DNA of 64,000 nt, taken from Natronomonas salina (lineage in GTDB: Archaea; Halobacteriota; Halobacteria; Halobacteriales; Haloarculaceae). Position numbers and translations under genes: made by a program. A model generated the notes under the pieces. The model saw only the letters and a list, made by a program, of their open reading frames with translations. It ran no database searches and was not told the DNA's origin. Every line of letters begins with the position of its first letter. The stretch's first letter is position 1. The stretch spans positions 3,410,001 to 3,474,000 of the forward strand of contig NZ_CP058335.1 in assembly GCF_013391105.1 (NCBI RefSeq), given 5' to 3'. Below, piece after piece: positions 340-22,360 of the stretch.

Positions 340-491
340 TGAGTAACTGTTACTACATACTGATACAAAACTCTTCGGTTGCCACAGACTGCGATTTGTC
401 ACTCCCCCAGAAACCTTGCATTGAACCCGTAGGTGGAGGTTGAGTCATGGGAAGGTTTTTACTTCCGCTTACTCATTACCTGAGTAACTGT
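340..491. promoter_or_regulatory. Divergent promoter region with a repeated 11-bp motif and a palindrome
   Basis: The 11-mer TGAGTAACTGT occurs at 340-350 (13-23 bases upstream of the small minus-strand gene) and again at 481-491 (on the start codon of the epimerase gene). The first copy lies in a GTAAC-T-GTTAC inverted repeat (343-353). The second is half of a perfect 7-bp inverted repeat with a 5-base spacer, TTACTCATTACCTGAGTAA (469-487). A T-rich TATA-like stretch at 455-461 lies about 30 bases before the GTG start. The layout suggests an operator over the promoter/start. The TrmB-family regulator encoded in the same operon (3627-4469) is the obvious candidate ligand-responsive protein, but that is inference. 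Confidence 0.5.
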
Positions 492-1665: not shown

Positions 1666-2626
1666 CGACGGGCTTCGCGTTCTGGTCACAGGTGGCTGCG
1701 GGTACATCGGCAGTGCGCTGATTCCCCAGCTTCTCGACGACGACCAGGTCGGCGAGGTCGTCGTCGTCGACTCGTTGATTGATGGTTCCCCCCGGAACCT
1801 CGCGGGCTGTCTCGGCGACGACCTCCGGTTCCGTCGCGGCGACGTCCGGGTGTACGGTGACGTCGAGAGTGCGACGCGGAACATCGACCGCATCGTCCAC
1901 CTCGCGGCGATCACCGGCGCCGATTCAACACACGACCGACGAGGAGAGACGTTCGCCGTCAACCAGGACGGCACGGAGAACGTTCTCACGGCCGCCCGGA
2001 AGTTCGACGTCGAGACGATCGTCTTCGCTTCCTCGTGTAACAACTACGGGCGGGCGGCCAGCACGGATATCGACGAGGAGACCGAACAGAACCCGCTGAA
2101 CCCCTACGCGGAGTCGAAGGTCGAATCCGAGGAGTTGCTTCAGGAGGCTGTCGACGAACACGGCATTGACGCTACTGCACTCCGGATGAGCACGGTCTAT
2201 GGGTGGTCACCAGGGATTCGATTCAACCTCGTGGTGAACCACTTTGTGTTCCGGGCGCTGACCGACCGACCGCTGACCGTTTACGGTGACGGGAGCAACT
2301 GGCGACCGTTCATCCACGTACAGGACGCCGCTCGGGCGTACGCGAGTGCCGTCCTGGAACCCGATGAGTGGCCTGAGTTCGTCTATAACGTCGGTTCGAA
2401 CGAGGGGAACTACCGCATCTCAGAGATTGCTGAGATTGTCCGCGAGGAACTCGACTATGAGCTTGACATTACCTACCTCGAGGACGAGCATCCAGGGCCG
2501 TCCTATCACGTGAACTTCGATCGGCTCTCGGAGACCGGCTTCGAGACGGAATGGACGCTTCGTGAGGGAATCCAGGACGTGGCCGAACAGATGGCTCGGA
2601 AAAATAGAGAGATGATCGAAACATGA
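1655..2626 (+). CDS. NAD-dependent epimerase/dehydratase (extended SDR)
   Basis: 323 residues beginning ATG ATG at 1655, inside the end of the preceding gene. The NAD site is VTGGCGYIGSALIPQL. The catalytic Ser/Thr region is IVFASSCNNYG, and the Tyr-Lys dyad is in NPLNPYAESKVESEE. The PLTVYGDGSNWRPFIHVQDAARAY segment is typical of sugar-nucleotide epimerases such as the GalE-like and GDP/UDP-hexose group. It acts in the cytoplasm on a nucleotide sugar; which one cannot be told from sequence. Ends in ATGA overlap with the next gene, showing translational coupling. Confidence 0.8.
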   Translation: MMSDDGLRVLVTGGCGYIGSALIPQLLDDDQVGEVVVVDSLIDGSPRNLAGCLGDDLRFRRGDVRVYGDVESATRNIDRIVHLAAITGADSTHDRRGETFAVNQDGTENVLTAARKFDVETIVFASSCNNYGRAASTDIDEETEQNPLNPYAESKVESEELLQEAVDEHGIDATALRMSTVYGWSPGIRFNLVVNHFVFRALTDRPLTVYGDGSNWRPFIHVQDAARAYASAVLEPDEWPEFVYNVGSNEGNYRISEIAEIVREELDYELDITYLEDEHPGPSYHVNFDRLSETGFETEWTLREGIQDVAEQMARKNREMIET

Positions 2627-3624
2627 CGGACACAGCAACCGAACGTTACGACGGGAGTGGTACACCAAAAATCGCGGTAACGGGAGCCGCTGGCTACATC
2701 GGCAGCCGGGTAGTGGATCGCCTGCAGGCGACGCATCCCGATTGGGAGATAACCGCTCTGGACAACTTCTATCTCGGCAAGGTCGACTCAATTGGTGACG
2801 TCAACATCCAGCACGTCGACATCCGCAACAGACACCGCCTGGAAGAAGCGATTGAAGGTGCGGACGTCGTCCTTCACCTGGCCGCGGTGAGTGGGGTCGA
2901 CGACTGTGAGGAGCACGCTGATCTCGCCTACGAGGTGAACGTCACCGGGACAAACAACGTGGCCTGGTTCTGTCGTCGGACGGGCGCGGCGCTGACGTTC
3001 CCGTTCAGCATGGCCGTTTTGGGTGACCCCGAGTCGTTCCCTATCACTGTCGACCTGCCACGGCAGCCGATGAACTGGTATGGGCGAACGAAGTACATCA
3101 GCGAACGGTCCATCGAGACGTTCGCTAAGGGATCGTTCCCCGCCCACCAGCTGATGAAGTCGAATCTCTACGGCGAACACGAGATCAATGGGACGGCCGT
3201 CTCGAAGTCGACGGTGATCAACTTCTTCGTCAGCCGTGTGGAAGCCGGAGAGCCCCTGACGGTATACGAACCAGGGTCGCAGTCGCGGAACTTCATCCAT
3301 GTCAAGGACGTTGCCCGGTCGTACGTCCGGAGTGCAGAGCGTCTGCTCGACCAGCTTGAGGCCGGCGAGACGGGGTCGGCGGCATACGAAATTGCCGGTA
3401 CGGAAGATCCATCGGTGATGGAGGTCGCCCAGAAGGTCCAGCGCATCGCTGGTGAGGAACTCGGTGAAGAACCGGAGGTGAAGCTCGTCGAGAATCCCCG
3501 GGCTGCTGAGACGAACGTCGAGGACTTCACCGTCGACATCTCGAAGGCGAAGTCGGAACTCGGGTGGGAGCCGACCCACACGGTCGAGGAGTCCATCCGA
3601 GACCTGCTTCAGCGGCGGGCCTGA
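2623..3624 (+). CDS. NAD-dependent epimerase/dehydratase (extended SDR)
   Basis: 333 residues, start overlapping the previous stop by four bases (ATGA). An N-terminal tail of about 15 residues precedes the Rossmann motif VTGAAGYIGSRVVDRL. The catalytic region shows FPFSMAVLGD where an SSxxVYG strand is usual, then the dyad MNWYGRTKYISE. FINVK-type loop NFIHVKDVARSY is present. It is the third SDR in a row, suggesting a multi-step remodelling of one sugar nucleotide. Three bases separate its stop from the regulator gene. Substrate unknown. Confidence 0.78.
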   Translation: MTDTATERYDGSGTPKIAVTGAAGYIGSRVVDRLQATHPDWEITALDNFYLGKVDSIGDVNIQHVDIRNRHRLEEAIEGADVVLHLAAVSGVDDCEEHADLAYEVNVTGTNNVAWFCRRTGAALTFPFSMAVLGDPESFPITVDLPRQPMNWYGRTKYISERSIETFAKGSFPAHQLMKSNLYGEHEINGTAVSKSTVINFFVSRVEAGEPLTVYEPGSQSRNFIHVKDVARSYVRSAERLLDQLEAGETGSAAYEIAGTEDPSVMEVAQKVQRIAGEELGEEPEVKLVENPRAAETNVEDFTVDISKAKSELGWEPTHTVEESIRDLLQRRA

Positions 3625-4560: not shown

Positions 4561-5490
4561 ATGCGAGTTTCGGTGGTGCTCTGTGAGCATTCGATGGAGC
4601 GGTACGACGATTTCACCGAAGCTGCGAATGCTGTTCTCTCGCAAACGTACGACGACGTCGAACTCGTGGTCGTCATCGACGGCAACGAGACCGTCTACGA
4701 GCGGGCTCTCGAGGACTTCGACGACCGGAATGACGTCATCGTCGAGTGTAACGATGAGAACGTGGGGTTGCTGACGAGCCGCAACCGCGGGGCAGAGTTA
4801 GCAACTGGCGACGTGGTGGCTTTCATCGACGACGATGCGGTCCCGGCCGGCGACTGGATTGAACTGCTCGTCGAAGGCTACGAGCAACGGGACGCTCTCG
4901 CCGTCGGCGGGAAGATGACGCCCCGCTGGGTGGCTGGGAAGCCGTCGTATCTCCCTGCTGAATTCTACTGGTTGGTCGGCGTCACCCAGCGCGGCTTCGC
5001 GGACGGGCCGTGTGAGGTCCGGAACACCTTCGGGTCCAACATCTCGTTTCGTCGTGACGTCTTCCTCGAGTTGGGTGGTTTCGAGAGCGACGTAGGCGGT
5101 CGGCAAGGTGATGCCAACCTCCAGGGTGGTGAGACGGAACTCTGTGCCCGATTACAGGCCGAGTACGGCGAGGGCGTCTGGTACATCCCGGACGCGGAGG
5201 TCGAACACAAGGTCTTCGCGTACCGCACGGAGGTGGGGTGGCTCCTCAATCGAGCCTTCTGGCAGGGGTACTCCAAACGTGGGATGGAAGTGTTCGTCGA
5301 TGAGTCGACCGATGAGGAGTTCGACTTCCTCGGCCAGTTGGTGACCGAGTTCGTCCCAGCCCGGACGAAGGAGCTGGTGGACGCACCCTCCATCGAGAAG
5401 GCACTGCAGTTCGTGATGATGTTCGTCTTCACCGCGCTGGTCGGCTTCGGGTACCTCTATGGGCTCGTCAAGTGGCGTGGCCAACCATGA
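4561..5490 (+). CDS. aglG: AglG-like family 2 glycosyltransferase (dolichyl-phosphate hexuronosyltransferase type)
   Basis: 309 residues. GT-A fold with VSVVLCEHSMERYDDF at the start, VVVIDGN, and the metal-binding DXD as AFIDDDAVP near residue 93. The stretch EFYWLVGVTQRGF, then NTFGSNISFRRDVFLELGGFE, then ETELCARL is the arrangement seen in haloarchaeal AglG. One hydrophobic helix at the C-terminus (about residues 283-303) anchors it to the membrane. AglG adds a hexuronic acid to dolichyl-phosphate-linked sugar on the cytoplasmic face during N-glycan assembly. A 91-base gap upstream has a TATA-like run and a partial GTAACAGT motif at 4549-4556. The symbol is by family resemblance, not proven orthology. 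Confidence 0.7.
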   Translation: MRVSVVLCEHSMERYDDFTEAANAVLSQTYDDVELVVVIDGNETVYERALEDFDDRNDVIVECNDENVGLLTSRNRGAELATGDVVAFIDDDAVPAGDWIELLVEGYEQRDALAVGGKMTPRWVAGKPSYLPAEFYWLVGVTQRGFADGPCEVRNTFGSNISFRRDVFLELGGFESDVGGRQGDANLQGGETELCARLQAEYGEGVWYIPDAEVEHKVFAYRTEVGWLLNRAFWQGYSKRGMEVFVDESTDEEFDFLGQLVTEFVPARTKELVDAPSIEKALQFVMMFVFTALVGFGYLYGLVKWRGQP

Positions 5491-6464
5491 CGCGGGTTCT
5501 CTGGCTCACGCCGAACAAACCCGGGAACATCAGCGTCGGCCGAGAACGAATCACCTCGCATCTCGAGGACAACGGCATCGATGTCACGCTCCGGGCCGGT
5601 GACAGAGCGACGCTGCGGGAGCAGGTGACGAGCGACGAGCACTACGATGTCGTCATCGGGACGACCCGTGCTGGTGCTATCGTCGGGACAGCTGTCTCGA
5701 TCGCGAAGGGCATCCCGCTGGTCGTCGATCACGTCGATCCCATCCGTCAGTTCTACGAGACGGAGTCGGGACCGCTGCCGCACATCGTCGAGCGCCTCGA
5801 GAACCTTGCGTTCCGACGTGCAGCGCATGTCCTCTATGTCTATCCCGAGGAGGAATCCCGGCTTCGAACGCGTGCGGACTCGTACTCGATGACCGACCTC
5901 GGCGTCGACTATCAGCGGTTCGCCGAACCGTCAGAGGATGCCATTGCAACCGCCCGTGACCGGATCGGCGATATTGAAGACAACGTGGCCGTGTACGTCG
6001 GTGGGCTCGAACCGATCTATCGTATCGAGGCGATGCTCGAGGCCGTCGAGCATCTTGATAATTGGACGTTGCTCGTCGCCGGGACGGGATCGCTGGAGTC
6101 GGAGGTCGAGACTGCAGCCGACCAGTCGGCGTCGATCCGGTATCTCGGGACGGTTCCCCACGAGGACGTCCCGGGATATCTCTCGCTGTCGGACGTGGGA
6201 ATCGCGCTGGTCGACGACCCGCACACACTGAAGGTGTTGGAGTATGGCGCGGCCGGACTGCCGGTCGTCCAGTTGGCTGGCCGGGCCGAGTCGCGGTTCG
6301 GTGGCCTGGTGACCTACACGGATCCGGGCCCGGAGGCGATTCCCGAGGCGATTCGAGAAGCGGGTCGGTCAGAGACTGGCGAAGCTCTGCGAACGTACGT
6401 CCGACACTTCGACTGGGGTCGCATCGCCGAGCAGTACGCTCGAGCTATCACAACCGTGAAATAG
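5487..6464 (+). CDS. GT4-like glycosyltransferase
   Basis: 325 residues from the ATG at 5487, which overlaps the aglG-like stop (ATGA); the earlier in-frame ATG at 5472 lies inside that gene. GT-B fold: an N-terminal acceptor domain, then the donor domain beginning AVYVGGLEPIYRIEAMLEAV near residue 175. LLVAGTGSLESEV and YLGTVPHEDVPGYLSLSDVGIAL follow, and a shortened VLEYGAAGLPVV stands where GT4 proteins have ExxxxGxP. The segment is short for GT4 and lacks the usual EAFGIVxLEAM acidic motif in full, so donor choice is open. Predicted cytoplasmic or membrane-peripheral, acting in the same glycan pathway. Confidence 0.7.
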   Translation: MTRVLWLTPNKPGNISVGRERITSHLEDNGIDVTLRAGDRATLREQVTSDEHYDVVIGTTRAGAIVGTAVSIAKGIPLVVDHVDPIRQFYETESGPLPHIVERLENLAFRRAAHVLYVYPEEESRLRTRADSYSMTDLGVDYQRFAEPSEDAIATARDRIGDIEDNVAVYVGGLEPIYRIEAMLEAVEHLDNWTLLVAGTGSLESEVETAADQSASIRYLGTVPHEDVPGYLSLSDVGIALVDDPHTLKVLEYGAAGLPVVQLAGRAESRFGGLVTYTDPGPEAIPEAIREAGRSETGEALRTYVRHFDWGRIAEQYARAITTVK

Positions 6465-6486: not shown

Positions 6487-7842
6487 ATGAGGGATGTCCT
6501 GCTGGTCACGATCGATTCGCTCCGTGCAGATCACCTCCACTGCATGGGCTACGACCGGGAGACGACCCCGGAGATAGACGCGCTGGCCGATGACGGACAC
6601 CTGTTCGAGGAGACGTACGCACACGCCTGCAGTACCCGCCCGTCGTTCCCGTCGATCCTCTCTTCCTCGCACGCGCTCAACCACGGTGGGTTCGAGCGGA
6701 TGACCGAGGGCCGAACGATGCTCGCCGAAGTCTTCGATGACGCCGGGTACGATACCGCCGGCTTCCACTCGAACCTCTATCTCAGTGCGGACTTCGATTA
6801 CGACCGCGGGTTCGACACGTTTTACGACTCGAAGACGGACCCCTCGGCGACTGCGCGACTCCGCCAGTTCGTCAAGGACAATCTCGACCAGAATGGCGCC
6901 ATCTATCAGTTCCTCGCGTCGGCGTTCGATACCGCCGAGCGACAGGCTGGCGTGAACATCGGCTCCGCCTACGAGTCGGCTGACGATACCACCGACCGTG
7001 CGCTGGAATGGGTCGAGGAGACCGAGGACGCCGAGTCGCGGTTCCTCTGGGTTCATTACATGGACGTTCACCACCCATACGTCCCGCCCGAGCGATACCA
7101 ACGGGAGTTCCGGGACGACCCCATCTCTGAGACCGAGTCGATCAAGCTTCGCCGGAAGATGATCGAGGAGCCGGAGAACGTGACCGAGGCGGAGCGGCAG
7201 GACATCATCGATCTGTACGACGCGGAGATCCGGTTCAACGACGCCGAGATCGGCCGTCTCGTCAGTGGAATCCGAGGCGCGTGGGGTGATGATCCACTCA
7301 TCGCAGTCACGGCTGACCACGGCGAGGAGTTCCAGGACCACGGCCGGTTCAGCCACTACGCCACGTTCTACGACGAGGTACTGCACGTCCCGCTCGTCCT
7401 CGCGGGCGTCGATGGGTCGGGCCGCCATGACGACCTCGTCGGCCTGCAGGACGTTCCAGCGACGCTCGTCGACTACGCGGGTCTCGAGCAGCCAGAGGCC
7501 TTCGATGGCTACTCACTACGGTCGTTGCTTGAGGACGACGACTGGCCACGTACCCACATCGTCGCTGACTGGGGGAACCGCGAGGACGAACAGCGGTTTG
7601 CCTACCGGGATCACGAGTGGAAGCTCATCCAGCGCAACTCCGGTGACGAACTCTACCACCTCACCGACGACCCTGAGGAACGGCAGAACGTCTTCGACGA
7701 GCATCCCGAGGTCGTCGAACGGTTGAGCGAGGTGCTCGACGAACACAAACAGGCGGTCCGAGCGAACTCTGAGTCGATGGTCGAGGCCGACATGGACGAG
7801 GACGTCAAAGAGCGGCTCCGGGATCTCGGCTACGCGGAGTAA
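6487..7842 (+). CDS. Alkaline-phosphatase-superfamily hydrolase ('sulfatase' fold) with Thr at the nucleophile position
   Basis: 451 residues. Metal-binding Asp is in LLVTIDSLRADHL (D10), the nucleophile segment is CSTRPSFPSIL (48-58), and the C-terminal metal ligands are in AVTADHGEEFQDHGRF. Sulfatases need C-x-P-x-R for formylglycine. Aligning the P-S and I-L positions puts Thr50 where that Cys would be and Phe54 where the Arg would be. This resembles phospho- or phosphoglycerol-transferase relatives that use Thr. It follows the glycosyltransferase by 22 bases and precedes the next by 1. Likely removes or transfers a sulfate or phosphate group on the glycan. No signal peptide is visible, so it may act in the cytoplasm. 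Confidence 0.75.
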   Translation: MRDVLLVTIDSLRADHLHCMGYDRETTPEIDALADDGHLFEETYAHACSTRPSFPSILSSSHALNHGGFERMTEGRTMLAEVFDDAGYDTAGFHSNLYLSADFDYDRGFDTFYDSKTDPSATARLRQFVKDNLDQNGAIYQFLASAFDTAERQAGVNIGSAYESADDTTDRALEWVEETEDAESRFLWVHYMDVHHPYVPPERYQREFRDDPISETESIKLRRKMIEEPENVTEAERQDIIDLYDAEIRFNDAEIGRLVSGIRGAWGDDPLIAVTADHGEEFQDHGRFSHYATFYDEVLHVPLVLAGVDGSGRHDDLVGLQDVPATLVDYAGLEQPEAFDGYSLRSLLEDDDWPRTHIVADWGNREDEQRFAYRDHEWKLIQRNSGDELYHLTDDPEERQNVFDEHPEVVERLSEVLDEHKQAVRANSESMVEADMDEDVKERLRDLGYAE

Positions 7843-7843
7843 G

Positions 7844-8796
7844 ATGGCCGATACGGACGCCCCACTCGTCAGCGTCGTCATCCCGACCTACGGCCGACCG
7901 GAGCTGGTGACCGGCGCCGTCGAGACGGTTCGAGAGCAGACCTACGAGTCCATCGAGCTCGTCCTCGTCGACGACTGCTCACCGGAGCCGATCGAACCTC
8001 GAATCCGCGAGATGGACCTGGATACGTTCGAGGACGTGCGTGTCCTTCGCCACGACGACAACCAGGGGGCAGCTGCAGCCAGAGCCACGGGTATCGAAGC
8101 CGCCACGGGCGAGTTCATCGCGTTCCTCGATGACGATGATCGCTGGGCACCGGAGAAACTACGGACGCAGGTCGAAGCCATCCGGGTATGGGGCGAGAAC
8201 GCCGGTGTCGCATACACCGGAATGCGGTACGTCGATGCGGACGGCGAGACGAAACGTGAGCACGTCCCGACCGAATCCGGCGATCTCACGAAGACGTTGC
8301 TCTGTCGGAACGTCGTCGGTTCGTACTCGACGGTGCTCGTGAGGGCCGAGGCCATCGAGGAGGTCGGCCTCCCGGATTCACGCTTCCCGAGCTGGCAGGA
8401 CATGGAGTGGTACGTCCGTCTCTCTCCCAGAACTGGGCGTTCGTCGCCGTCGACGAATCGCTGACGGTCATCCAGCAGGCCGACCACGAACAGATCAGCG
8501 ACGATTTCTCGACGATTCGCGACGAAGCGTATCCACTGTTTCTCGAGAAATATCGCCCACTCGCTGCTGAATACGGTCGCGTATTCGAACGCAAGATGCT
8601 GGCGTGGGCGGCCTTCAGAGTCGGCGCATACAACGCGCTGCGGACGGGGCATTTTGCGGACGCGCGTCGCTTCCTGTTTCGCGCGGTTCGGCTCTATCCG
8701 TTCGAATTCACGTTCTGGCTGTATCTTGGTGTCGCCCTCGGTGGAAAGCCACTGTACACGGCTGGAAGACGGGTCAAGCGAGCGCTACTTGATTGA
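7844..8796 (+). pseudogene. Family 2 glycosyltransferase, frameshifted at a TC repeat
   Basis: The first frame (7844-8464) carries a normal GT2 start VSVVIPTYGRPELV, VDDCSPEP, and the DXD motif AFLDDDDRW, up to WQDMEWYVRLS. It then goes out of frame and stops at 8464. The downstream part of the protein (NWAFVAVDESLTVIQQADHEQIS and a C-terminal membrane helix) continues in another frame to the stop at 8796. The shift is at (TC)4, positions 8419-8426. Removing one TC unit restores a continuous 316-residue GT2. This could be a true pseudogene, a phase-variable tract or a sequencing error. Confidence 0.8.
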
Positions 8797-8891: not shown

Positions 8892-10304
8892 ATGAGGCTT
8901 GGACAGATATCGTTCGTCAACTTCGTCTCGAAGATCGTCACCTCCGTTGGCGGCTTCGTTGCGACCGTCGTCATCACCCAGCTGTTGGGCTCGGGTGTCT
9001 TCGGGACGTACGCACTCATCATCGCGGTTGTCATCTGGCTGAAGACGATCGCCGTGATGGGGGTTCGCTCCGCGGTCATCAAACGGGCGAGTGAAACCGG
9101 CGAAACGAGCGAATACGTCGTCGCTGGCGCTGGCATCCTCGTTGCAATTCTCCTGTTCCTCTCCGCAGTGTTGGTCACTGCGCAGGGCTACGTCGACTCA
9201 TACATCGGGACGACTGCGACGTACAGCATCATCGCGCTGACGTGGTCGGTCTCGCTGCTGTCGCTCGCGACCGGCGTCCTTCACGGACAGCATCTCGTCC
9301 ACTACGCAGCTCTCTTGCGGCCGGTGGATATCGGTATTCGAAGCGTCGTCCAGATTGCGGCTGTCGTCTTGGGATTCAGCCTCGGCGGCATCCTCTTCGG
9401 CTATGGGCTGGGCGCGATCATCGCAGCGTTCATCGGCCTGGTCTATATCGTCGATCTCACACCGAAACGCCCCGACCGGGAGCATTTTGACGACCTGTTC
9501 GGCTACGCCAAATTCGCATGGCTGGGGACGCTCAGCTCACGAACCTTCACCAGCATGGACACGATCGTCCTGGGACTCTTCGTCTCCGTCAATCTCATCG
9601 GCATCTACGAGGTCTCGTGGAACCTGGCGTCGCTACTCGCCGTCTTCGGCGCCGTGCTTGGTCAGACGCTCTTTCCCGAGTTCAGCAAGCTCTCGAGTGC
9701 AGGCAACGCCGAGGAGGTGCGGTCACTCCTCGAGAAGAGTATCGCGTTCTCCGGACTGTTCCTGATCCCTGGCCTCGTGGGTGCCGTCATCATCGGTGAT
9801 CTGGTCCTGTACGTCTACGGCAACGAGTTCCCCAGAGGCCACTACATCTTGGTGTTGCTCGTCCTCTCGCGACTCGTCTACAACTACGCCGACCAGTTGC
9901 TCACCGTCCTGAACGGCATCGATCGCCCGGACCTGGCGTTCCGGGCGAACGCTGCATTCGTCGTCGTGAACCTGTCGCTCAACCTCGTGTTGGTGTACCT
10001 CTACGGATGGTACGGCGCCGCTGTCGCGACCGTTGTCTCAGCCGTGGCTGCGCTGGTGATCTCGTATCGACACGTGCGAGCGATTATCGACGGTGTCCCC
10101 ATCCCGGGTGGCGAACTCGCCCGGCAGGCCGTTGCAGCGGGCATGATGAGTGTCGTGGTGTATATCCCGCGGCAGTTCCTCCCGGATATCTTCGCTGTCG
10201 GTGTCGCACTCACCGTCTTGGGGGCAACGGTATACTTCGTCTCGTTGTTCGGCCTCTCGAGTGGATTCCGGACGACCGTGGCCGATAATCTCCCCGTCCT
10301 CTGA
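8892..10304 (+). CDS. Flippase / polysaccharide biosynthesis protein (Wzx/AglR-like, MOP superfamily)
   Basis: 470 residues, almost entirely hydrophobic, with about twelve to fourteen membrane helices. The N-terminus (LGQISFVNFVSKIVTSVGGFVATVVITQLLGSG as spaced motifs) is the usual first-helix signature of MOP flippases. The second half opens with FTSMDTIVLGLFVSVNLIGIYEV, again typical. Members move lipid-linked oligosaccharides across the cytoplasmic membrane; AglR has this role in Haloferax. The gene sits after the glycosyltransferases and is preceded by a 95-base gap, so it may have its own promoter. Substrate is inferred from context. Confidence 0.85.
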   Translation: MRLGQISFVNFVSKIVTSVGGFVATVVITQLLGSGVFGTYALIIAVVIWLKTIAVMGVRSAVIKRASETGETSEYVVAGAGILVAILLFLSAVLVTAQGYVDSYIGTTATYSIIALTWSVSLLSLATGVLHGQHLVHYAALLRPVDIGIRSVVQIAAVVLGFSLGGILFGYGLGAIIAAFIGLVYIVDLTPKRPDREHFDDLFGYAKFAWLGTLSSRTFTSMDTIVLGLFVSVNLIGIYEVSWNLASLLAVFGAVLGQTLFPEFSKLSSAGNAEEVRSLLEKSIAFSGLFLIPGLVGAVIIGDLVLYVYGNEFPRGHYILVLLVLSRLVYNYADQLLTVLNGIDRPDLAFRANAAFVVVNLSLNLVLVYLYGWYGAAVATVVSAVAALVISYRHVRAIIDGVPIPGGELARQAVAAGMMSVVVYIPRQFLPDIFAVGVALTVLGATVYFVSLFGLSSGFRTTVADNLPVL

Positions 10305-10321: not shown

Positions 10322-11422
10322 CTACCAGCCGTCGACTTCGTGGAAGTACTGTTCGGCTCCGTCGTGGATGAACGTGACCACGTTGGCGTCGTCGTCTTCC
10401 TGCGTGATGGCTTGGGCGACCTCCATCGCGGCACCCGAACTCGGTCCCATCAACATTCCGTTGTCGGCTGCCTCGTGCTTCGCTCGTGAGACCGCGATCG
10501 AGTCCGAGACCGACCGGATGTCGTCCATCACGTCGAGATTCGCGGACGCCGAGACACGCCACTGCCCGAGGCCTTCGACATCAACGTTGTAGTCGCCCAG
10601 TTCTTCGTCGTGGAATTCTCGAGAGATGTTCGAGTCCTCGCCGTCGACGCCGACGATCTGGATGTGCGGTGCGACCTCCTTGAAGTATTCAGCCACGCCC
10701 GTCAGGAGACCGCACGTTCCCATCGCGCCGACGATGTGGGTGACGTCGTCGTTCTTGATCTGTTGGTACAACTCGGGGCCCGTCCACTCGTAGTGGATGT
10801 GGCGATTCAGGGGGCGTCCGTACTGGTTGAGATACACCGCGTCGTGCTCTTGGGCGTAGCGCTCGGCCACTGTCTGGTAGTAGTAGTCGTGTTCGTGGCC
10901 GACGTCCGGCGTCGTCACGATCTCGGCGCCGAGGGCTTTCACGAACCCGACCTTCACCGGTGAGGTCGTCTCGCGCATGACGATGGTACAGGGGTGGTCG
11001 AGCCGATTCGCTGCGAGTGCGACCGCGCCGGCCGTGTTGCCAGAGCTCGCCTCAACGATACGTTGTCCGGGTTCGAGCTCGCCCATCTGGCGGAGTCCGA
11101 GGATCATCCCGGGACCGATGCGGTCCTTATGTGAGAGCGTCGGGTTCTCCCGCTCTACCTTGGCGACGATCTGTTCGTTCTCCGGGTGTGCCACCAGTGG
11201 CGTGTTCCCGATCTCTCGGAGAATCGGGTCCTCTTGGATTTCGTCGAATGGAATCCCCTCCTTCTCCTCAAGGGTTACGAACGTTTGGCTGAGATCGTCT
11301 TCTGGATTTCGGGTTGCTTTCGAGCCCTCTTCTCCATATTCCGTCGTGTACTCTACAGCTTTAGAACTATCAATATCGACAGGGGAGTTTTCAAATGCCT
11401 CATCATTCGTATCGTCTGTCAT
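10322..11422 (-). CDS. PLP-dependent enzyme of the cysteine synthase / CBS fold-type II family
   Basis: 366 residues. An acidic N-terminal extension of about 65 residues precedes the catalytic core, which starts ILREIGNTPLVAH. The PLP lysine is K99 in LSHKDRIGPGM. The substrate loop is EASSGNTAGAVALAAN. The phosphate-binding loop reads GAMGTCGLLTG rather than the common GTGGT. MGPSSGAAMEVA near the C-terminus contacts PLP. Family members replace the beta-substituent of O-acyl- or O-phosphoserine with sulfide or another nucleophile. Transcribed opposite to the flippase inside a glycan locus, beside a TupA-like ATP-grasp gene, so it may make an unusual amino acid for glycan decoration rather than housekeeping cysteine. 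Confidence 0.8.
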   Translation of the reverse strand: MTDDTNDEAFENSPVDIDSSKAVEYTTEYGEEGSKATRNPEDDLSQTFVTLEEKEGIPFDEIQEDPILREIGNTPLVAHPENEQIVAKVERENPTLSHKDRIGPGMILGLRQMGELEPGQRIVEASSGNTAGAVALAANRLDHPCTIVMRETTSPVKVGFVKALGAEIVTTPDVGHEHDYYYQTVAERYAQEHDAVYLNQYGRPLNRHIHYEWTGPELYQQIKNDDVTHIVGAMGTCGLLTGVAEYFKEVAPHIQIVGVDGEDSNISREFHDEELGDYNVDVEGLGQWRVSASANLDVMDDIRSVSDSIAVSRAKHEAADNGMLMGPSSGAAMEVAQAITQEDDDANVVTFIHDGAEQYFHEVDGW

Positions 11423-11613
11423 TACCCTGGAGTAGTCGTCCGAACTGTAAATAGGTACTCCCGATTCCAGATGGATTCAGGCGCTGAAATGCTATAGAGA
11501 CCGTTGAGAGCGGGTGTACAGGGACCAAAGGAGGAGCCGACCTAATTTCAACGACTTTCTCTATTTCAATCGGGGATAGGATTGTCCGGAGACTACAGCG
11601 GCTTCGTAGATGG

Positions 11614-12603
11614 TTACCAGAGTTCCCCGAAGTGGTGATCGATTTCTTCAGGTTCGAAGTCACCGACGCCTGAACCTGGCCCGACAGTCATCTCGCCGAA
11701 GGCGATTCGTTCGCCATCGATGTCGTAGAGGTCTATGCGGATGAAGTCGAGATCTTCGCCCAGCGTCTCGGCTATCTCGACCATATCGTCGAACGTGTCT
11801 GGTTTCTCTGTCACCGGGGCCAGAGGATAGCCTCTTTTGAACTCCTGGGGGTTCCAGTCTCTATCGTAGAACCGTCGTTTGTGATCGGAATACCGGTCCA
11901 GGTCTACCTGTACGTACTCGACCTCTCCGTGGAAAACGAAGAACTTGTAATCAGGTGGAACGTCGTCGTCCTCGTTCTGAAGGTACTCTTCGAACAGGAT
12001 GCGGGGTTCGATATCCCAGTACCAGGACTCTTCTTTCATCACGTTATGCGTCGTCTCGAGCCACTCCCGACCTTTCGCCTTGATCTCCTCTCTGGGGACT
12101 GTGTCCCCTTCTTCGACGAAGATGATCGGCCCCGCCATGTGGTTCGGCTTCACGACGAACGACTCGGGTAGTTCATCGAACGGAATGTCTTCGGGGTCGT
12201 CAGTGACGTGGTAGAGTTCTGGCAGGAAGTCTTCCCCGACCTTCTCGGCGACGTAGTCTCTGACCTGCCACTTGTCCTCGACGGTCGAGAATAGCTCGTT
12301 GTCCTCGTAGAGTTTGCGATGAGCAACCTTCTCGTTGAAGGTGCGTGGATTCTTGATCTGTGGCCAGTAGCCCAGCCGCAGATACATGAAGAGCTTCAGA
12401 TGGAGTTCCTTTCCCAGAGCGGCCTTCAGATAGGGGCTGGCAGGGTTATGGATCAGGATGTGGTTCGCGATCCGTTTCAGGGCAGCGAGCGGCCCTTCCT
12501 GCAGCAGGGAGTCTTTCAGGATGGCAGCCTTTCGCTGGAGCACGGCTACTCCTACAGGAAGTCCACCAATAAGCATTGATACGTGGTGATTCCCGACGAA
12601 CAC
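11614..12603 (-). CDS. TupA-like ATP-grasp protein
   Basis: 329 residues from 12603; an ATG at 12576 is an alternative that gives a hydrophobic N-terminus. The conserved N-terminal block is YWPQIKNPRTFNEKVAHRKL, then DKWQVRDYVAEKVGE. ATP-grasp elements follow: SFVVKPNHMAGPIIFVEEG for nucleotide binding, ILFEEYL, DYKFFVFHGEVEYVQVD, and metal ligands in FIRIDLYDIDGERIAFGEMT. TupA family proteins are linked to teichuronopeptide in Bacillus, where amino acids join a glycan. A carboxylate-amine ligation on a uronic acid sugar is therefore plausible. It is divergent from the FkbM gene and co-directional with the PLP enzyme, 191 bases apart. Confidence 0.75.
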   Translation of the reverse strand: MFVGNHHVSMLIGGLPVGVAVLQRKAAILKDSLLQEGPLAALKRIANHILIHNPASPYLKAALGKELHLKLFMYLRLGYWPQIKNPRTFNEKVAHRKLYEDNELFSTVEDKWQVRDYVAEKVGEDFLPELYHVTDDPEDIPFDELPESFVVKPNHMAGPIIFVEEGDTVPREEIKAKGREWLETTHNVMKEESWYWDIEPRILFEEYLQNEDDDVPPDYKFFVFHGEVEYVQVDLDRYSDHKRRFYDRDWNPQEFKRGYPLAPVTEKPDTFDDMVEIAETLGEDLDFIRIDLYDIDGERIAFGEMTVGPGSGVGDFEPEEIDHHFGELW

Positions 12604-12818: not shown

Positions 12819-13574
12819 ATGTCAATTCGTCCTGTCGAACTCTACTCGGAAGGCGGTCTCTCGGAAGTCCAACGCGGTGTTACCGATTGGTACCTCTACA
12901 AGATTAAACGGCCCGTCTTCACCCAGATCAAGGACACGAGCCAGATCAAAGTAGATGACGTCGAGATTGAGTGGACGATCGCGAATCAGGAGTCGGCGTC
13001 GCGTGCAATCGGCATCAGCGAGACGGTCGTCATGGAGGACTTCGTGAAGAATGTGGATGAAGGCAAGGTATTCTGGGATGTGGGTGCAAACCAGGGCATT
13101 TACTCGATGCTGGCAGCTGAACAGGACCTGGACGTCCACGCCTTCGAACCCGGTGAGAAGGCCCGCTCGATTCTGCGGGAGAATGAAGCCCTGAACGACG
13201 TAGATGTGAACGTGCACTCGTTCGCGCTGAGTGACGAAGATGGCGAGAAGACCCTCGCGAAGACGGGGAATACCGGGACTCGGAGTCTCGTCTCGGATGG
13301 TGAACAGGACGGCGATACAGTGCAGATTAAGCGCGGAGAGTCAGTTGACGCACCAACCCCGGATGTCATGAAGATCGACGTCGAAGGCCACGAACTGAAG
13401 GTCCTCGATGGGCTGGGGGAGTGCCTGGATGCGTGCCAGCTCTGTTACGTTGAGGTCCACGACGATGCAGAACTCGACGAGGTCGAAACCATCCTCATCA
13501 ACCACGACTTCGATGATATCAACCACCTTCCGGACCCGAATACGATTGTCAAGGGAGTTACCCCCAGTACATAG
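12819..13574 (+). CDS. FkbM-family SAM-dependent methyltransferase
   Basis: 251 residues. SAM-binding motif I is KVFWDVGANQGIYSMLA near residue 87, with AFEPGEKARSIL as motif II. The FkbM signature VMKIDVEGHELKVLDGL is near residue 186. FkbM-type enzymes O-methylate sugars or natural products; in glycosylation loci they usually methylate a hexose or uronic acid on the lipid-linked glycan. A TATA-like GTTAAATAC at about 12785 lies some 33 bases before the ATG, consistent with an almost leaderless transcript. The gene stands alone on the plus strand between divergent genes and a pseudogene. Confidence 0.85.
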   Translation: MSIRPVELYSEGGLSEVQRGVTDWYLYKIKRPVFTQIKDTSQIKVDDVEIEWTIANQESASRAIGISETVVMEDFVKNVDEGKVFWDVGANQGIYSMLAAEQDLDVHAFEPGEKARSILRENEALNDVDVNVHSFALSDEDGEKTLAKTGNTGTRSLVSDGEQDGDTVQIKRGESVDAPTPDVMKIDVEGHELKVLDGLGECLDACQLCYVEVHDDAELDEVETILINHDFDDINHLPDPNTIVKGVTPST

Positions 13575-14895: not shown

Positions 14896-16353
14896 ATGCG
14901 AACAGGGTGGCCCTATCGAGTTGGGAGCATAGTGGGGGTCGCGGGACTCTCCATGTTGGCCGTAGTCGTAGCCAATCAGCCGGTGATGCAGTCGGTATTC
15001 ACGACGTATGTCCCGGTCTTCTGGCGGCTCGATCCTGTGACGCTCTCATATGGGCCGCTGACAACGGTATTGTGGGTGGCGGCGACGGTATTCGTCGTCT
15101 GTTTCCTCCCGCTATACAAGCCGCGACCGAGACGCGTCCTCGACACCGTCACGCTGGCAGACAAGCGGACCGTCGTCGCGGGCTGTATTCTCGCGACGCT
15201 CGGGTACTTCAATTGGTCACACCGGTTGCCTCGGTCAACGCTTGTGATAACCTGCGGGATTCTGTTCGTCGTGCTGCCCACCTGGTTTGTGCTGATTCGA
15301 CGAAGGCCGAACGGCGAGAACAGCCGAGTGATCATCATCGGTGACGATACAGAGGCGATGGAGGCCGTCCTGGCGGCTGCGGAGAGCCCCGTCATCGGCT
15401 ACGTCTCGCCGCTGTCGCACTCGACAATCAGCTCAGACGAGTACTCGCAGGCCTATGTGACTGACGGAGGTTCCGTAATGGAGGAGCTGGTAGACGAGGC
15501 TGACGCCAGGCCACGGCTCCGCGAACTTGACCGGTTGGGGGGGCTCTCGCGGCTCGACGAGGCACTGGTTGAATACGATGTCGACACCGCGTTCCTGGCG
15601 TTCTCTCGAGCGGACCGGGCCGAGTTCTTCGGGACGCTCGACGCGTGTTACGAGCACGGTGTAACGGTGAAGGTCCACCGCGAGCACGCGGACTCGGTGT
15701 TGACGAACGGGTTTGGGAGCGGAGAGCTGGTGGACGTGGACCTCGAGCCCTGGGACACGGTGGACCACCTGTTGAAGCGGACCTTCGACGTAGTTTTCTC
15801 GATTTTTGGATTGATTGCTACGGTGCCAGTGATGCTGGTTATTGCTTTGGCTATCAAACTAGACGACGGCGGGCCTGTATTGTATCAACAGGCCCGAACT
15901 GCAGCCTTCGGAGATATGTTCAGTGTGTACAAATTTCGGAGTATGGTGGAGGACGCAGAATCGATAAGTGGAGCAAAGATCAGCGACGAAGATAACGGCA
16001 ACTTTGACCCACGAGTCACCCGGATTGGCCGGTTCTTGCGTCGAACTCATTTTGACGAAATCCCACAGCTTTGGTCGATTCTGATTGGTGATATGAGTGT
16101 GGTCGGTCCACGACCCGAGCGACCCGAATTGGAGACGAATATGGAATCGGATGCTGTAGCATGGCGCCGGCGGTGGTTCGTGAAACCCGGTTTGACTGGA
16201 CTGGCACAGATTAATGGCGTCACCGGGTTTCAACCGAAGGAGAAACTTCGACTCGACATAGAGTACATCAGACGACAATCATTGTGGTTCGATTTGAAGA
16301 TTATTGCCCAACAATTTTGGGAGGTACTACCAAGTGGACCCAATATACAGTAA
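14896..16353 (+). CDS. Initiating sugar-phosphate transferase (polyprenyl glycosylphosphotransferase, WbaP/EPS type)
   Basis: 485 residues. Four or five membrane helices in the first 140 residues are followed by a nucleotide-binding-like domain (RVIIIGDDTEAMEAVLAA). The C-terminal catalytic domain has LLKRTFDVVFSIFGLIATVP as its membrane entry, GGPVLYQQARTAAFGDMFSVYKFRSM, DPRVTRIGRFLRRTHFDEIPQLWSIL, and MSVVGPRPERPE. The enzyme moves a sugar-1-phosphate from a nucleotide donor to a polyprenyl phosphate, starting glycan synthesis at the inner membrane face. A TATA-like GTTTATTC about 35 bases upstream suggests its own promoter. The later half becomes AT-richer, marking the start of a foreign-looking segment. 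Confidence 0.88.
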   Translation: MRTGWPYRVGSIVGVAGLSMLAVVVANQPVMQSVFTTYVPVFWRLDPVTLSYGPLTTVLWVAATVFVVCFLPLYKPRPRRVLDTVTLADKRTVVAGCILATLGYFNWSHRLPRSTLVITCGILFVVLPTWFVLIRRRPNGENSRVIIIGDDTEAMEAVLAAAESPVIGYVSPLSHSTISSDEYSQAYVTDGGSVMEELVDEADARPRLRELDRLGGLSRLDEALVEYDVDTAFLAFSRADRAEFFGTLDACYEHGVTVKVHREHADSVLTNGFGSGELVDVDLEPWDTVDHLLKRTFDVVFSIFGLIATVPVMLVIALAIKLDDGGPVLYQQARTAAFGDMFSVYKFRSMVEDAESISGAKISDEDNGNFDPRVTRIGRFLRRTHFDEIPQLWSILIGDMSVVGPRPERPELETNMESDAVAWRRRWFVKPGLTGLAQINGVTGFQPKEKLRLDIEYIRRQSLWFDLKIIAQQFWEVLPSGPNIQ

Positions 16354-16467
16354 ATAATATGAAACCAAATATTCTGGTTTTAGGTACACTGTTTAGACCG
16401 ACGCTATTTTACGCTCATGGATCACTGAGGGACGTAAGGGAAGCCCTCCGGTGATCCTTCTGTACTA

Positions 16468-18270
16468 ATGAACGACACAGATAATCTCGATATTTCGTGG
16501 AGGGAAAAGGGGCGCGCGCTATATCAGGTTGCGAAGTTTCAACCGGGATTCTCCGCCGCCATTCTTGTTTTAGGCGTATTTGCAGCAGTCCTCGAGGGCT
16601 TCGGATTGAGTTTCATCATGCCTATCGTTGAGCTATCTCAGTCGTCTGGGGGTATTGCAGAAGCTGACGGATTACTTAGTGTGTTTATGGGTCTCTATGA
16701 ATTCTTGGGCATTCCATTTACGCTGGGTTATCTGATCATTGGGGTCGCGAGCGTGATGACTACACGTTATACGATGACGTTCTTAGTCCGTTGGTTCCGA
16801 GCGGCTTTAGAGACCCGATACGTACGGTACTTACAGGAGGCGTCATTCAATAGTGCGCTAGATGCTGATGTGGCATACTTCGATGAGCAAGGCTCCGACG
16901 AGATATTGAATGCCATTGTAACGCAGGCGGAGTATGCAGGATTCGTAATCAGATACACGCTACAAGCGTTTGAGCAGGGCTTGCTGGCGCTGATATACAT
17001 CGCACTAGCGCTCTACCTCTCGCCACTATTGACGATTATTACAGGGATTTTTCTTGGCGGCGTAACGTTTCTCTTCAGAAATGTCCTTGACACAGGATAT
17101 TCTCTTGGTGACGAGGTGGCCGACGCTAAGGAGGGTATTCAGTCCCGAGCCCAAGCCGGAACACAAGGTGTACGCGCGGTAAAACTGTTCGGGATCGGTG
17201 ATGAACTTCGCGAGGGTTTCTCGGAGGCAGCTGACAAGTTTGAACGGTATCGCATTAAGTTACAGCGCAATGAGGAGGCGATGAGCAGCTTCTACAACCT
17301 AACGGTGGCGGTAACGGTTTTTGTACTCATCTACTTCGCCCTAACTTTCTCGGCGATGAATGTCGGTGAACTCGGTGTATTCCTCTTCGCTATGTATCAG
17401 CTAGGTCCACGGGTCAGTAACGTGAATAAACATATTTACCGGATGGAAAGCGAGTTACCTCATCTCGTACGGACGCAACGGTTCCTTGACAAGCTAGAAT
17501 CGAACCGAGAGGTGGAAGGCGGTTCGCAGTCTGTACAGGCACCCGTCGACCGAGTCGAATTCCATAAGGTATGGTTTACCTACGACTCTGCCGACGAACC
17601 GGTCCTTAGGGAGGTCTCCTTCGATGTGGAGCGCGGTGATTTCATCGCATTTGTCGGGCCGTCTGGCGCTGGGAAGTCGACTATTGCTTCACTATTGGCC
17701 CGGATGTACGAACCGAACTCGGGGAAAATTACGGCTGATGGCATCCCGCTAGCGGAATTCGACATTGACGAATGGCGCTCCCACGTCTCCATCGTCCGGC
17801 AGAACCCCCACATCTTCAACGACACGCTCAGAAGGAACATTACCGTTGGACACCGCGCCGCGACGCAGAAGGAAATCCAAGAAGTTTGCGAGATCGCGCG
17901 AGTAACCGAGTTTTTGGATGAACTTCCGGACGGGTACGATACAACGCTAGGTGACCAAGGGGTTCGATTATCGGGCGGACAAAGGCAACGTGTAGCCATC
18001 GCACGGGCGCTATTGAAGGACGCGGACCTCCTAATTCTTGACGAAGCGACCAGTGATTTGGACACTTCTCTTGAGAAAGAGGTACATGATGGCATCGAGG
18101 CGATGGAACGCGACTATGCTATGCTGGTGATTGCTCACCGACTATCGACCATTACGGACGCTGATTGTATCTATGCAATGGAGAATGGCAGGATCGTCGA
18201 ATCGGGTGATCATGGATCCCTCATATCGCAAGATGGGGCGTACTCACAACTATACTCTCTGCAGTCTTGA
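16468..18270 (+). CDS. ABC exporter, fused permease-ATPase (MsbA/PglK-like)
   Basis: 600 residues. Six membrane helices in the first 330 residues precede an ATPase domain with Walker A FVGPSGAGKST near residue 396, signature LSGGQRQRVAIARAL, Walker B LLILDEATSDLD, and the H-loop VIAHRLSTI. This half-transporter would act as a homodimer. In glycan loci such proteins flip lipid-linked oligosaccharides or glycolipids, as PglK does. The locus therefore has two candidate translocases, this one and the MOP flippase at 8892. Codon use is AT-richer than the left part of the window, suggesting transfer. Confidence 0.85.
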   Translation: MNDTDNLDISWREKGRALYQVAKFQPGFSAAILVLGVFAAVLEGFGLSFIMPIVELSQSSGGIAEADGLLSVFMGLYEFLGIPFTLGYLIIGVASVMTTRYTMTFLVRWFRAALETRYVRYLQEASFNSALDADVAYFDEQGSDEILNAIVTQAEYAGFVIRYTLQAFEQGLLALIYIALALYLSPLLTIITGIFLGGVTFLFRNVLDTGYSLGDEVADAKEGIQSRAQAGTQGVRAVKLFGIGDELREGFSEAADKFERYRIKLQRNEEAMSSFYNLTVAVTVFVLIYFALTFSAMNVGELGVFLFAMYQLGPRVSNVNKHIYRMESELPHLVRTQRFLDKLESNREVEGGSQSVQAPVDRVEFHKVWFTYDSADEPVLREVSFDVERGDFIAFVGPSGAGKSTIASLLARMYEPNSGKITADGIPLAEFDIDEWRSHVSIVRQNPHIFNDTLRRNITVGHRAATQKEIQEVCEIARVTEFLDELPDGYDTTLGDQGVRLSGGQRQRVAIARALLKDADLLILDEATSDLDTSLEKEVHDGIEAMERDYAMLVIAHRLSTITDADCIYAMENGRIVESGDHGSLISQDGAYSQLYSLQS

Positions 18271-18276
18271 ACCGAA

Positions 18277-19389
18277 TCAGTTGCCAAACACGTCGCAGTA
18301 GATTTGCTCTACCTTTGACGTAGCTACTTCGTGCGTGAAGTGCCTCTGGACTCGCCGCCGGCCATTTCTACCGAGTTCACGACGACGATCTGGGTTCGAA
18401 AGCAGTTCATTGATTGCTTTCGATAAGGCGGACGAATCGCGAGGAGGGACGGTCAGACCGGTCTCTCCATCCTTGCTGACCCATGGGACGCCTGTGGGAA
18501 GTGAGGTATTGATGACTGGCGTCTCGTGGGCCATCGCTTCGAGCTGAACAATGCCAAATGCCTCGCTCGGTTCAACTGAAGGGAGGACGAAGACGTCGGC
18601 CTGTTCATAGAGCTGGTGTAATCGATCGTCAGTGATTCTGCCTAGGAATCTCACGCGATTGGCTACGCCTTCATTTTTTGCTTGTTTAACCAATGCAGCT
18701 CGACGGGGCCCAGAACCAGCTACAAGGAGCGTCGCGTCGACATTTTTCATTGCATCAATCAGGTGCTCAAGGCCCTTGTAGTAGACGAGTCGCCCAACGA
18801 ATAGTATAACCGCGCCTCTATCCACCAATATTTCATCGGAAGAAAGTGCATCTAAGCGGTCTATCGCGTCCAAGTCCACCGTGGGTGGAACAATCTCGCA
18901 CTTGTCCCGATAGGGCGCAAGGACTTTGGAGTGTTCCAGAAGGGACGGTGAGGTCACAATTATGCGATCGGTGCGCGCAAGGAAGCTATCAAGAAGAGGG
19001 CGATAGAACTTCGCCGCGGAACGTTGTTTTACAATGTCACTGTGATACGTGGCTATGAGTTTGGAAGAACTAGGGTCGGCAATAGTCTGTGAGACGACAC
19101 TGAGCGGATTGGGTAAATGGAGGTGGACAATGTCAGCCCAATCTGTGTGTTGATAGATCCGAAGTGGGAAGGCCGGCGCAATAGGGACTGACATGAGTTC
19201 ACCTAGGCTGCTTGTACGATAGACCGAAATATCATTGACATCGTTAGAATAGCCGATACCGAATTCTCTGGATGTGAGAACACGGACAGTCCATTGACTT
19301 TGAGAGAGTCCCTCCGCTATCGTTTGGACGACGTCTTCAACGCCACCAATTGTCGGATAGTAGTATTTGCTGACTTGGAGTATGTTCAT
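18277..19389 (-). CDS. GT4 family glycosyltransferase
   Basis: 370 residues with the glycogen-synthase-like GT-B fold. The N-terminal donor-side loop is YYPTIGGVEDVVQTIAEGLS. Residues about 200-330 hold VILFVGRLVYYKGLEHLIDAM, LLVAGSGPRRAALV, VRFLGRITDDRLHQLYEQADVFVLPSVEPSEAFGIVQLEAMA, and GLTVPPRDSSALSKAI. The EAFGIVQLEAM motif provides the donor-contacting glutamates of retaining GT4 enzymes. Convergent with the ABC exporter, whose stop is 7 bases away. Sugar specificity unknown. Confidence 0.85.
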   Translation of the reverse strand: MNILQVSKYYYPTIGGVEDVVQTIAEGLSQSQWTVRVLTSREFGIGYSNDVNDISVYRTSSLGELMSVPIAPAFPLRIYQHTDWADIVHLHLPNPLSVVSQTIADPSSSKLIATYHSDIVKQRSAAKFYRPLLDSFLARTDRIIVTSPSLLEHSKVLAPYRDKCEIVPPTVDLDAIDRLDALSSDEILVDRGAVILFVGRLVYYKGLEHLIDAMKNVDATLLVAGSGPRRAALVKQAKNEGVANRVRFLGRITDDRLHQLYEQADVFVLPSVEPSEAFGIVQLEAMAHETPVINTSLPTGVPWVSKDGETGLTVPPRDSSALSKAINELLSNPDRRRELGRNGRRRVQRHFTHEVATSKVEQIYCDVFGN

Positions 19390-19614
19390 AGCGGGAGTAC
19401 TATCAATATCCGGGGTTCTATATTGTACAAGATTCGGTTTACAGTGACTTTTTATTCACCACCACTAATCGATCTGTATATTAGATTGAATTCTCCAGAT
19501 AGGATGGTAACGAACAATCGTTATTTGCTCAGACATTTCTGAGAATGTGATTTACGTTGCCTAGTCTACAGAGAATCCACATCTATATTAACCCTTAAGG
19601 ATGACAGAGTCGGT

Positions 19615-20799
19615 ATGAATCGGGGGGCAGCTGTGGTTGTTACGTTATTATCTCTCTCAGCATTGTCTCAAACTCAATTTGATATATTTCAATCTATAGG
19701 GAGACAGGTAATGATAGTAGGGTATATCCTTACATTCACGTGGCTTCTATATCGGGGTGATTGGGTGCTACGAGGACAATATTGGGCTACCATAGGAGTC
19801 TTTAGTTTAATAGCATTATTTTCGATAGCGTTGGTTATTACTCCTGAGCTGCCTTCATCCTTATTGGTATTTCCGGTATATGTTGGAGTAATACTCATTG
19901 TGAACATCTTCCTTATTCAGCAAATATGTAGCTGGTTTCAATTTTGCCAAATTATCGGGAGGTTAGGTGCGATAATTAGTAGCATAGGCGTTATACTGAT
20001 TCTAAGTGGCGGTATTGACCTGACAATTCTCAAACTCACACCATGGCGACCCCATATAATGAGGTCGGTATTTAATAATCCAAATACACTTGGTATTGTG
20101 ACGATGGTATCTATAATGGCATCATTTAATGAGTATAAAGAAACGAAGGATTGGCAGCCATTGTTGATTGTTTTTATTTCTTCAATAGGCCTGTACTTCA
20201 GTCGTTCTCGAACAGCCCTATTAGCTCTCCTTCTGGCGCTAGGTGTCATTGCAGCAGATCAAGTCATTAGTCGGCGAATGGCCTCAATTGGCGTTTCTCT
20301 TTACTTCGGATTACTAATAGTCATTCTGTTCGTTTTCATGAGTATCTTTCCCCAGCCATCAATTCTATCGTCGGTTCAGTTTAGTGGACGTCTGATAATT
20401 TGGGATTCAACAAGAATAGTTTTGTCCAGAATGTCTATGGTTGATCTCATCCTGGGGAAAGGTTTCGTACATCCCCCAATCCTGCTAGAACCTCATATAA
20501 GAGATTCACGGTTTGTGGGTAAAGGAATTCACAACGCATATTATCACGCAATAATGAGATTTGGCCTAATTGGATTACTAATGAATCTATATTTCTATTA
20601 TTATCCGATACTTAAATCTATGCGCGATCCGCAGAGCAACATTTTCCCTGCCGCAATTGCAGTTGGATTTTTGGGATACATGTTATTCGAAAGTACGCTC
20701 TTTTTCGGAGTCGGGGTTACCTCCTCTATGCAGGCAATTGTCCTCGGATATATGCTGAAACCTAGAGATAGGGAGTGTAAATATAAAAGTCTAACATGA
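19615..20799 (+). CDS. Wzy-like O-antigen polymerase/ligase membrane protein
   Basis: 394 residues with roughly ten to twelve membrane helices. A large external loop between residues about 285 and 320 contains LGKGFVHPPILLEPHIRDSRF and then GIHNAYYHAIMRFGLIGLLM. The HN followed by an aromatic/hydrophobic pattern is typical of the O-antigen ligase/polymerase family, which joins glycan repeat units or transfers them to a final acceptor outside the membrane. AT-rich codons and a divergent position from the neighbouring GT4 gene (225-base AT-rich gap) support foreign origin. Confidence 0.75.
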   Translation: MNRGAAVVVTLLSLSALSQTQFDIFQSIGRQVMIVGYILTFTWLLYRGDWVLRGQYWATIGVFSLIALFSIALVITPELPSSLLVFPVYVGVILIVNIFLIQQICSWFQFCQIIGRLGAIISSIGVILILSGGIDLTILKLTPWRPHIMRSVFNNPNTLGIVTMVSIMASFNEYKETKDWQPLLIVFISSIGLYFSRSRTALLALLLALGVIAADQVISRRMASIGVSLYFGLLIVILFVFMSIFPQPSILSSVQFSGRLIIWDSTRIVLSRMSMVDLILGKGFVHPPILLEPHIRDSRFVGKGIHNAYYHAIMRFGLIGLLMNLYFYYYPILKSMRDPQSNIFPAAIAVGFLGYMLFESTLFFGVGVTSSMQAIVLGYMLKPRDRECKYKSLT

Positions 20800-20978
20800 C
20801 TGGTCAGGAGATTAATGCCAAATACGAGAAAGAGTGGACCGTGTAACGACCATTGAGCGGGTGCAATTGGTTCGATTAAAGGGCTATCACCGCGGCGACC
20901 CATTCAACGGACTTAAATGATATGTCTGGAGTTGCTTATGATGTAATATTTACCTCTTGAAGTTATAGAACTTCACCA

Positions 20979-21971: not shown

Positions 21972-22360
21972 GCGCCCAATAAATACGAAAATATTAAAGA
22001 AATTTTATAAAAATATTTTTACCACTATAAATAAATTATATAATAATGGGTAATATGGTTGTTAATGCTGGTGTTTCGAGTTAGTTTGTCCATGCCAATC
22101 TCCTTGTCCATCCATTACGAATCGAAGGTTTACGGGATGTCATTCTGAAGGCAATAGCCAATGACACGTCAGTCCTGACTCGTCTGGTCGGCGAATTCTC
22201 AAAGATATTCGAATATCTCCTCCTTGATGCCACGAATCTAATCCGTCAATCTACCAAGGTACTTAGCTCGTTAGCGATGTAAGGGAATGTATTGAAGGGC
22301 TACATATTGGCATTTATCCGGGTGTCAGAGTGAGAGTATTGTAAATGGAGGGACTTGGGG
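21972..22360. other. AT-rich intergenic stretch with a possible 65-codon gene remnant
   Basis: The first 80 bases are extremely A/T-rich. An open frame on the plus strand from 22085 to a TAA at 22282 (starting just after a TAG, with no start codon) reads like coding sequence. It contains HANLLVHPLRIEGLRDVILK and EFSKIFEYLLLDATNLIRQS. I do not recognise the family; it could be the C-terminus of a decayed gene. No intact gene, tRNA or repeat array was seen here. Confidence 0.35.

Follow-up and report, generated by a model that had tools for sequence, protein, structure and literature searches.

A PLP enzyme and a TupA-type ATP-grasp ligase, encoded side by side in a haloarchaeal glycan locus, may together form a module that decorates a surface glycan with an amino acid. 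The amino acid would be non-standard and amide-linked, probably to a hexuronate of the N-glycan, and we give this reading a probability of roughly 0.4. The genes lie within a 64,000-nucleotide stretch of Natronomonas salina DNA (contig NZ_CP058335.1), here called the window, from a genome that consists of one haloarchaeal contig of 3.75 Mb. Judged from sequence, the PLP enzyme probably makes the amino acid, which TupA probably links to a sugar acid. Archaeal N-glycans are chemically very varied, and the decoration with amino acids that we found documented is in methanogens. The recurring pairing of this PLP family with a ligase in haloarchaeal glycan loci provides a concrete gene set for such decoration, with cultured carriers such as Halorubrum tebenquichense (L065), and in the window the ligase has seemingly been exchanged for an unrelated one.

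Table 1. Positions of the features of the window that are discussed in the text.
Feature	Positions	Strand	Basis or remark
UDP-sugar 6-dehydrogenase, start part, crossing the left edge	1-90	minus	L157:5795-7090(-); ~90 bases in the window
Sugar-nucleotide epimerase/dehydratases (three)	490-3624	plus	PF01370 in all three
AglG, glucosyl-dolichyl phosphate glucuronosyltransferase	4561-5490	plus	NF041394, 511 bits vs cut-off 440 (NCBIfam)
GT4-type glycosyltransferase	5472-6464	plus	PF13692, 5.8e-12
Sulfatase-superfamily protein	6487-7842	plus	PF00884, 1e-42; 64-66% identity to counterparts in L039, L046 and L048
GT2 glycosyltransferase, frameshift-split near 8425	7844-8796	plus	tblastn of the L039 homolog continues in another frame
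Polysaccharide flippase	8892-10304	plus	PF13440, 1.9e-18; 50-53% identity to flippases of L039 and L046
PLP enzyme	10322-11422	minus	CysK fold; 366 aa; ATG start; PALP PF00291, 1.2e-58 (Pfam)
Phosphate loop GTCG, residues 235-238 of the PLP enzyme (usual: GTGG)	10709-10720	minus	Alignment and count of fixed differences
TupA-type ATP-grasp ligase	11614-12603	minus	329 aa; GTG start; PF14305 ATPgrasp_TupA, 2.9e-46
FkbM-type methyltransferase	12819-13574	plus	TIGR01444, 86 bits vs cut-off 37.7

The earlier note on this DNA had described two co-directional genes of these kinds in a glycan locus, and both open reading frames were recovered exactly where it had placed them. The TupA gene is upstream of the PLP gene on the same strand, separated from it by 191 bp, and the two run against their neighbors on both sides. 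To the left are the genes of an agl-like module, together with a TrmB regulator, and to the right are the FkbM methyltransferase gene and then a module of lower GC, so that the pair stands at the junction between DNA of 61-64% GC and an exopolysaccharide-like region of 40-57% GC. The uronosyltransferase that the earlier note had called AglG-like scored as an AglG equivalog, and the UDP-sugar dehydrogenase that it had seen at the left edge was confirmed as a gene crossing that edge, its product being 57% identical to the dehydrogenase of L056. With respect to the marks of an Agl N-glycosylation locus, the AglG equivalog was present in the window and AglB was not, the AglB homolog of the genome being found outside the locus at ~315 kb on the chromosome. 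The lower-GC module (14896-25045 of the window) encodes a polyprenyl glycosylphosphotransferase, an ABC exporter, a Wzy_C ligase-like protein and GT4 enzymes, and was likely acquired horizontally. Further to the right, the open reading frame at 37113-38369 resembled a TnpB-type transposon protein when judged by eye.

The module reading is supported by the places where the PLP family is found. Twelve of its 18 other homologs were located in glycan loci, eight of them with both AglB and AglG, and in 11 of these 12 loci an AsnB-like or other PP-loop protein was encoded ~0.1-1.2 kb from the PLP gene. The twelfth locus (L036) stops at a contig edge and had no ligase in the stretch read; L035, where the PLP gene lies outside a glycan locus, had no ligase in its stretch either. 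Reverse searches were performed with the AsnB-like subfamilies c18, c19 and c20 as queries, the homolog counts including the query. Four strong homologs were found for c18 (48-100% identity; next best, 32%), three for c19 (69-100% identity; next best, 41%) and one for c20, for which the sample searched was half-size; all of these adjoined a PLP gene, as did the relatives of c20 in L042 and L044 (41-42% identity). The profiles of c18 and c20 matched c19 at ~96% in hhalign, and the nine AsnB-like proteins that were aligned all lacked the N-terminal glutaminase cysteine while keeping the (S/T)GGxDSR loop. The partner in L047 gave a weak PP-loop match to NAD_synthase, under the cut-off for that family. 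The solved relatives of c19 were a trichostatin-type hydroxyamidotransferase and beta-lactam synthetase, an enzyme likewise without glutaminase activity; unlike these, the haloarchaeal proteins stand in glycan loci, and the window holds an unrelated ATP-grasp protein in their place. An Asp/Glu racemase was encoded near the PLP gene in L036, L040, L042 and L044, and a search of the window's own genome for such a racemase gave no match. The ligase partners without the glutaminase cysteine, the solved relatives of c19 and the racemase together suggest amino-acid chemistry.

The window appeared to be a variant of three of these loci. AglG, the sulfatase, a c13-type glycosyltransferase and the flippase are common to the window and to L039, L046 and L048, and the GT4 enzyme is also found in L039. 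The PLP gene is followed by c19 in all three, and FkbM comes next in L039 and L048. The window has a similar gene set, rearranged, with the flippase gene moved and the PLP gene in inverted orientation; it lacks c19, and TupA lies between PLP and FkbM. Furthermore, the PLP genes that c20 accompanies fall on two separate branches (L040 versus L042 and L044), so the PLP enzyme seems to have been re-paired with another ligase on an earlier occasion. Given c19 in this place in three similar loci and this apparent earlier re-pairing, TupA appears to have taken over from another ligase, a reading drawn from gene content after the loci had been seen. The split GT2 gene of the window is homologous to L039:8368-9315, and the frameshift reflects either decay of the gene or an error in sequencing.

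Enzymes of the CysK fold use serine derivatives for beta-replacement, and those of the ATP-grasp and AsnB-like kinds couple a carboxylate to an amine. We propose that the PLP enzyme would start from serine, free or activated, and through elimination plus beta-replacement give a non-proteinogenic or beta-substituted amino acid. TupA would then use ATP to form the acyl phosphate of a carboxylate and couple this to an amine; the carboxylate would most likely be that of a hexuronate supplied by the UDP-sugar dehydrogenase and AglG, and the amine that of the new amino acid. The methyltransferase, the flippase and the oligosaccharyltransferase would complete and export the glycan. The hexuronate amide is the likeliest product in the window because the dehydrogenase and AglG are present and no NeuA, NeuB or NeuC match was obtained. 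The proposal in the earlier note that an unusual amino acid is joined by an amide to a uronic acid thus stood in part: the PLP family is found beside ligases in glycan loci, genes for uronic acid are present and TupA retains its family-invariant residues, but the usual partner elsewhere is AsnB-like rather than TupA. The module is also supported by the separation of the PLP family from the CysK genes of the genome and by the finding of the AsnB-like partners solely beside PLP genes; weighing against it are the single genome with the pair, the location of AglB and the six of 18 PLP homologs found outside glycan loci. A broader proposal appears unlikely: that this halophile-specific family of PLP beta-synthases supplies surface glycans with a new non-proteinogenic amino acid of their own, and that two or more unrelated types of ligase (adenylating enzymes of the AsnB-like type and ATP-grasp enzymes that form an acyl phosphate) were recruited in turn for its attachment, amino acid and ligase thus evolving as exchangeable parts of archaeal glycosylation.

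The two genes might instead be fortuitous neighbors, the PLP gene belonging to the agl module on the left and TupA to the exopolysaccharide-like module on the right, where it would place an ordinary amino acid on a uronate with no common pathway. The survey of haloarchaeal genomes bears on this. In one set of 392 genomes, the PLP family (E <= 1e-60) was present in 19 and TupA homologs (E <= 1e-20) in 10, and the two occurred together in one, that of the window. The co-occurrence in other genomes by which the earlier note had proposed to judge the pair was thus not observed, and a conserved PLP-TupA pair was rejected. Since ~0.5 genomes would be expected under independence, there was no sign of a general association between the families, and a family-wide search added no PLP carrier. 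TupA homologs were also found without this PLP family in L056 and in an E. coli O167-type locus, and the gap of 191 bp fits unconnected genes as well. Fortuitous adjacency stays alive because the GC of TupA and FkbM (0.55-0.56) is below that of the agl genes (0.61-0.64), a lower GC that they share with the genes to the right, and because two close relatives of the PLP enzyme have no ligase nearby. Against this, the pair shares one strand opposite to both flanks, and in nearly all other glycan loci the PLP gene is accompanied by a ligase, a role for which TupA is the sole candidate in the window. On balance, we regard chance adjacency as somewhat unlikely.

The properties of the PLP enzyme itself were compared with those of characterized families. 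An AlphaFold2 model built with 24 sequences was confident from ~residue 60 on and had the CysK/CBS fold (Z, ~40), and the positions of the Schiff-base Lys, the SGNT loop and the PLP-N1 Ser, whose roles were assigned by homology, were retained. The nearest solved structure by sequence was CapA1 of Capnocytophaga (9k2p), which has the same fold as CysK and the window enzyme. The window enzyme nevertheless fell far under both family cut-offs (TIGR01136 for cysteine synthase, 195.8 bits versus 344; NF053679 for CapA, 177 bits versus 600) and belonged to a separate clade. Assignment as a CapA cysteate synthase was unsupported, given that score and the genome of Longimonas, which carries a member of the PLP family plus a separate and better CapA match of 431 bits. 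In a tree of 106 rows, the halophile PLP family formed one clade of 22 rows on a long stem (support, 100/100), and the two CysK-like genes of the host genome fell outside it. The clade contains haloarchaea and three Bacteroidota/Rhodothermota of salty habitats (L066, L069 and L070), whose sequences lie inside the haloarchaeal clade, and exchange of the gene between halophilic bacteria and archaea is probable. A scan of named genomes with a single PLP sequence as query gave zero matches; matches were obtained with the alignment as query.

The nonstandard phosphate loop reported in the earlier note was confirmed as G235-T236-C237-G238. Since two homologs of other genomes (L035 and L036; 68-73% identity) also carry C237, GTCG is not a sequencing error. 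The window copy and these two homologs formed a 100/100 subclade on its own long stem, separated from the remaining 16 sequences by C237 and nine other fixed differences. On this alignment, GTCG is genuine and distinguishes a divergent PLP subfamily, and the subclade with the altered loop may have a specificity of its own.

These data also bear on the idea of the PLP enzyme as a general enzyme of amino-acid metabolism, sulfhydrylase or dehydratase/racemase-like, merely located near glycan genes, with the ligase taking common amino acids. The CysK-like catalytic positions that it retains would fit this, as would its distribution, since six of the 18 members and, among the matches listed, those of Longimonas and two other halophilic bacteria lie outside glycan loci. 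We consider the idea unlikely, given that the family stands apart as a clade with a long stem, that the AsnB-like partners were found only beside its genes and that the genome holds two further CysK-clade genes, which also rejects the case raised in the earlier note of a sole cysteine synthase of the cell. The PLP gene of Longimonas adjoins trp genes. Outside the glycan loci, a DUF1611 protein (L045:8346-9482) and a DAO-family oxidase (L050:11562-12902) were encoded near PLP genes, and these neighbors may hint at the substrates of the family.

It is very unlikely that the window ligase instead forms an N-aminoacyl sugar by coupling an amino sugar to the carboxyl of the amino acid: such a product would suit L040, L042, L044 and L047, where PLP and ligase genes are near NeuB-like genes, but tblastn gave zero matches to NeuA, NeuB and NeuC within the window, none of its annotated glycan genes was recognized as an amino-sugar gene, and it has the UDP-sugar dehydrogenase and AglG. 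NeuA- and NeuC-like genes accompany the racemase in L040, L042 and L044, so that all three Neu functions are encoded near PLP there and not in the window. Those three loci and L047 possibly direct the synthesis of an amino-acid-modified nonulosonic acid, and acylation of an amino sugar is also possible in nonulosonic-acid loci.

The hexuronate amide that we favor has a precedent in Methanococcus, where the N-glycan carries threonine on C6 of a mannuronate (beta-ManpNAcA6Thr); the enzyme responsible for the attachment had not been identified when the subject was reviewed in 2010 (PMC2952790). This matches the proposed module in that a uronic acid of an archaeal N-glycan bears an amino acid at C6, and differs in that the organisms are methanogens rather than haloarchaea and threonine is proteinogenic, so that no dedicated gene for making the amino acid is needed. 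The statement in the earlier note that no such haloarchaeal system has been described agreed with our search as far as haloarchaea are concerned, although the Methanococcus amide narrows its scope. No report of an agl cluster with PLP or ligase enzymes of the asparagine or cysteine synthase type was found in open papers, which is weak evidence of absence, and no relevant report was found in the open literature for TupA with glycans or for aglU. Among bacteria, both teichuronopeptides and O-antigens have been associated with ATP-grasp ligases (PMC4431377), and TupA has been tied to teichuronopeptide in Bacillus (PMC8153356). The TupA of Bacillus halodurans belongs to the same Pfam family as the window protein, and its system, as proposed for the window, has uronic and amino acid in one polymer (PMC8153356), whereas that polymer is part of a bacterial cell wall and consists of polyglutamate and polyglucuronate, with no PLP partner described.

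The PF14305 domain of the window TupA is nearly complete (158 bits versus a gathering cut-off of 25; profile positions 1-239 of 241), and K152, E205, D291 and E304 were invariant across nine homologs. Its real start may be slightly further in than the annotated codon. The structure model had a pLDDT of 37, and no convincing relative was obtained when the TupA profile was compared with solved structures. In the viral contigs searched, one TupA fragment was found, and the CysK-like matches were distant only. A second TupA homolog of the same genome, with 43% identity, is encoded at L053:9454-10413 (G000:C1:1286017-1286910) and adjoins genes for a sulfatase-like protein and an epimerase.
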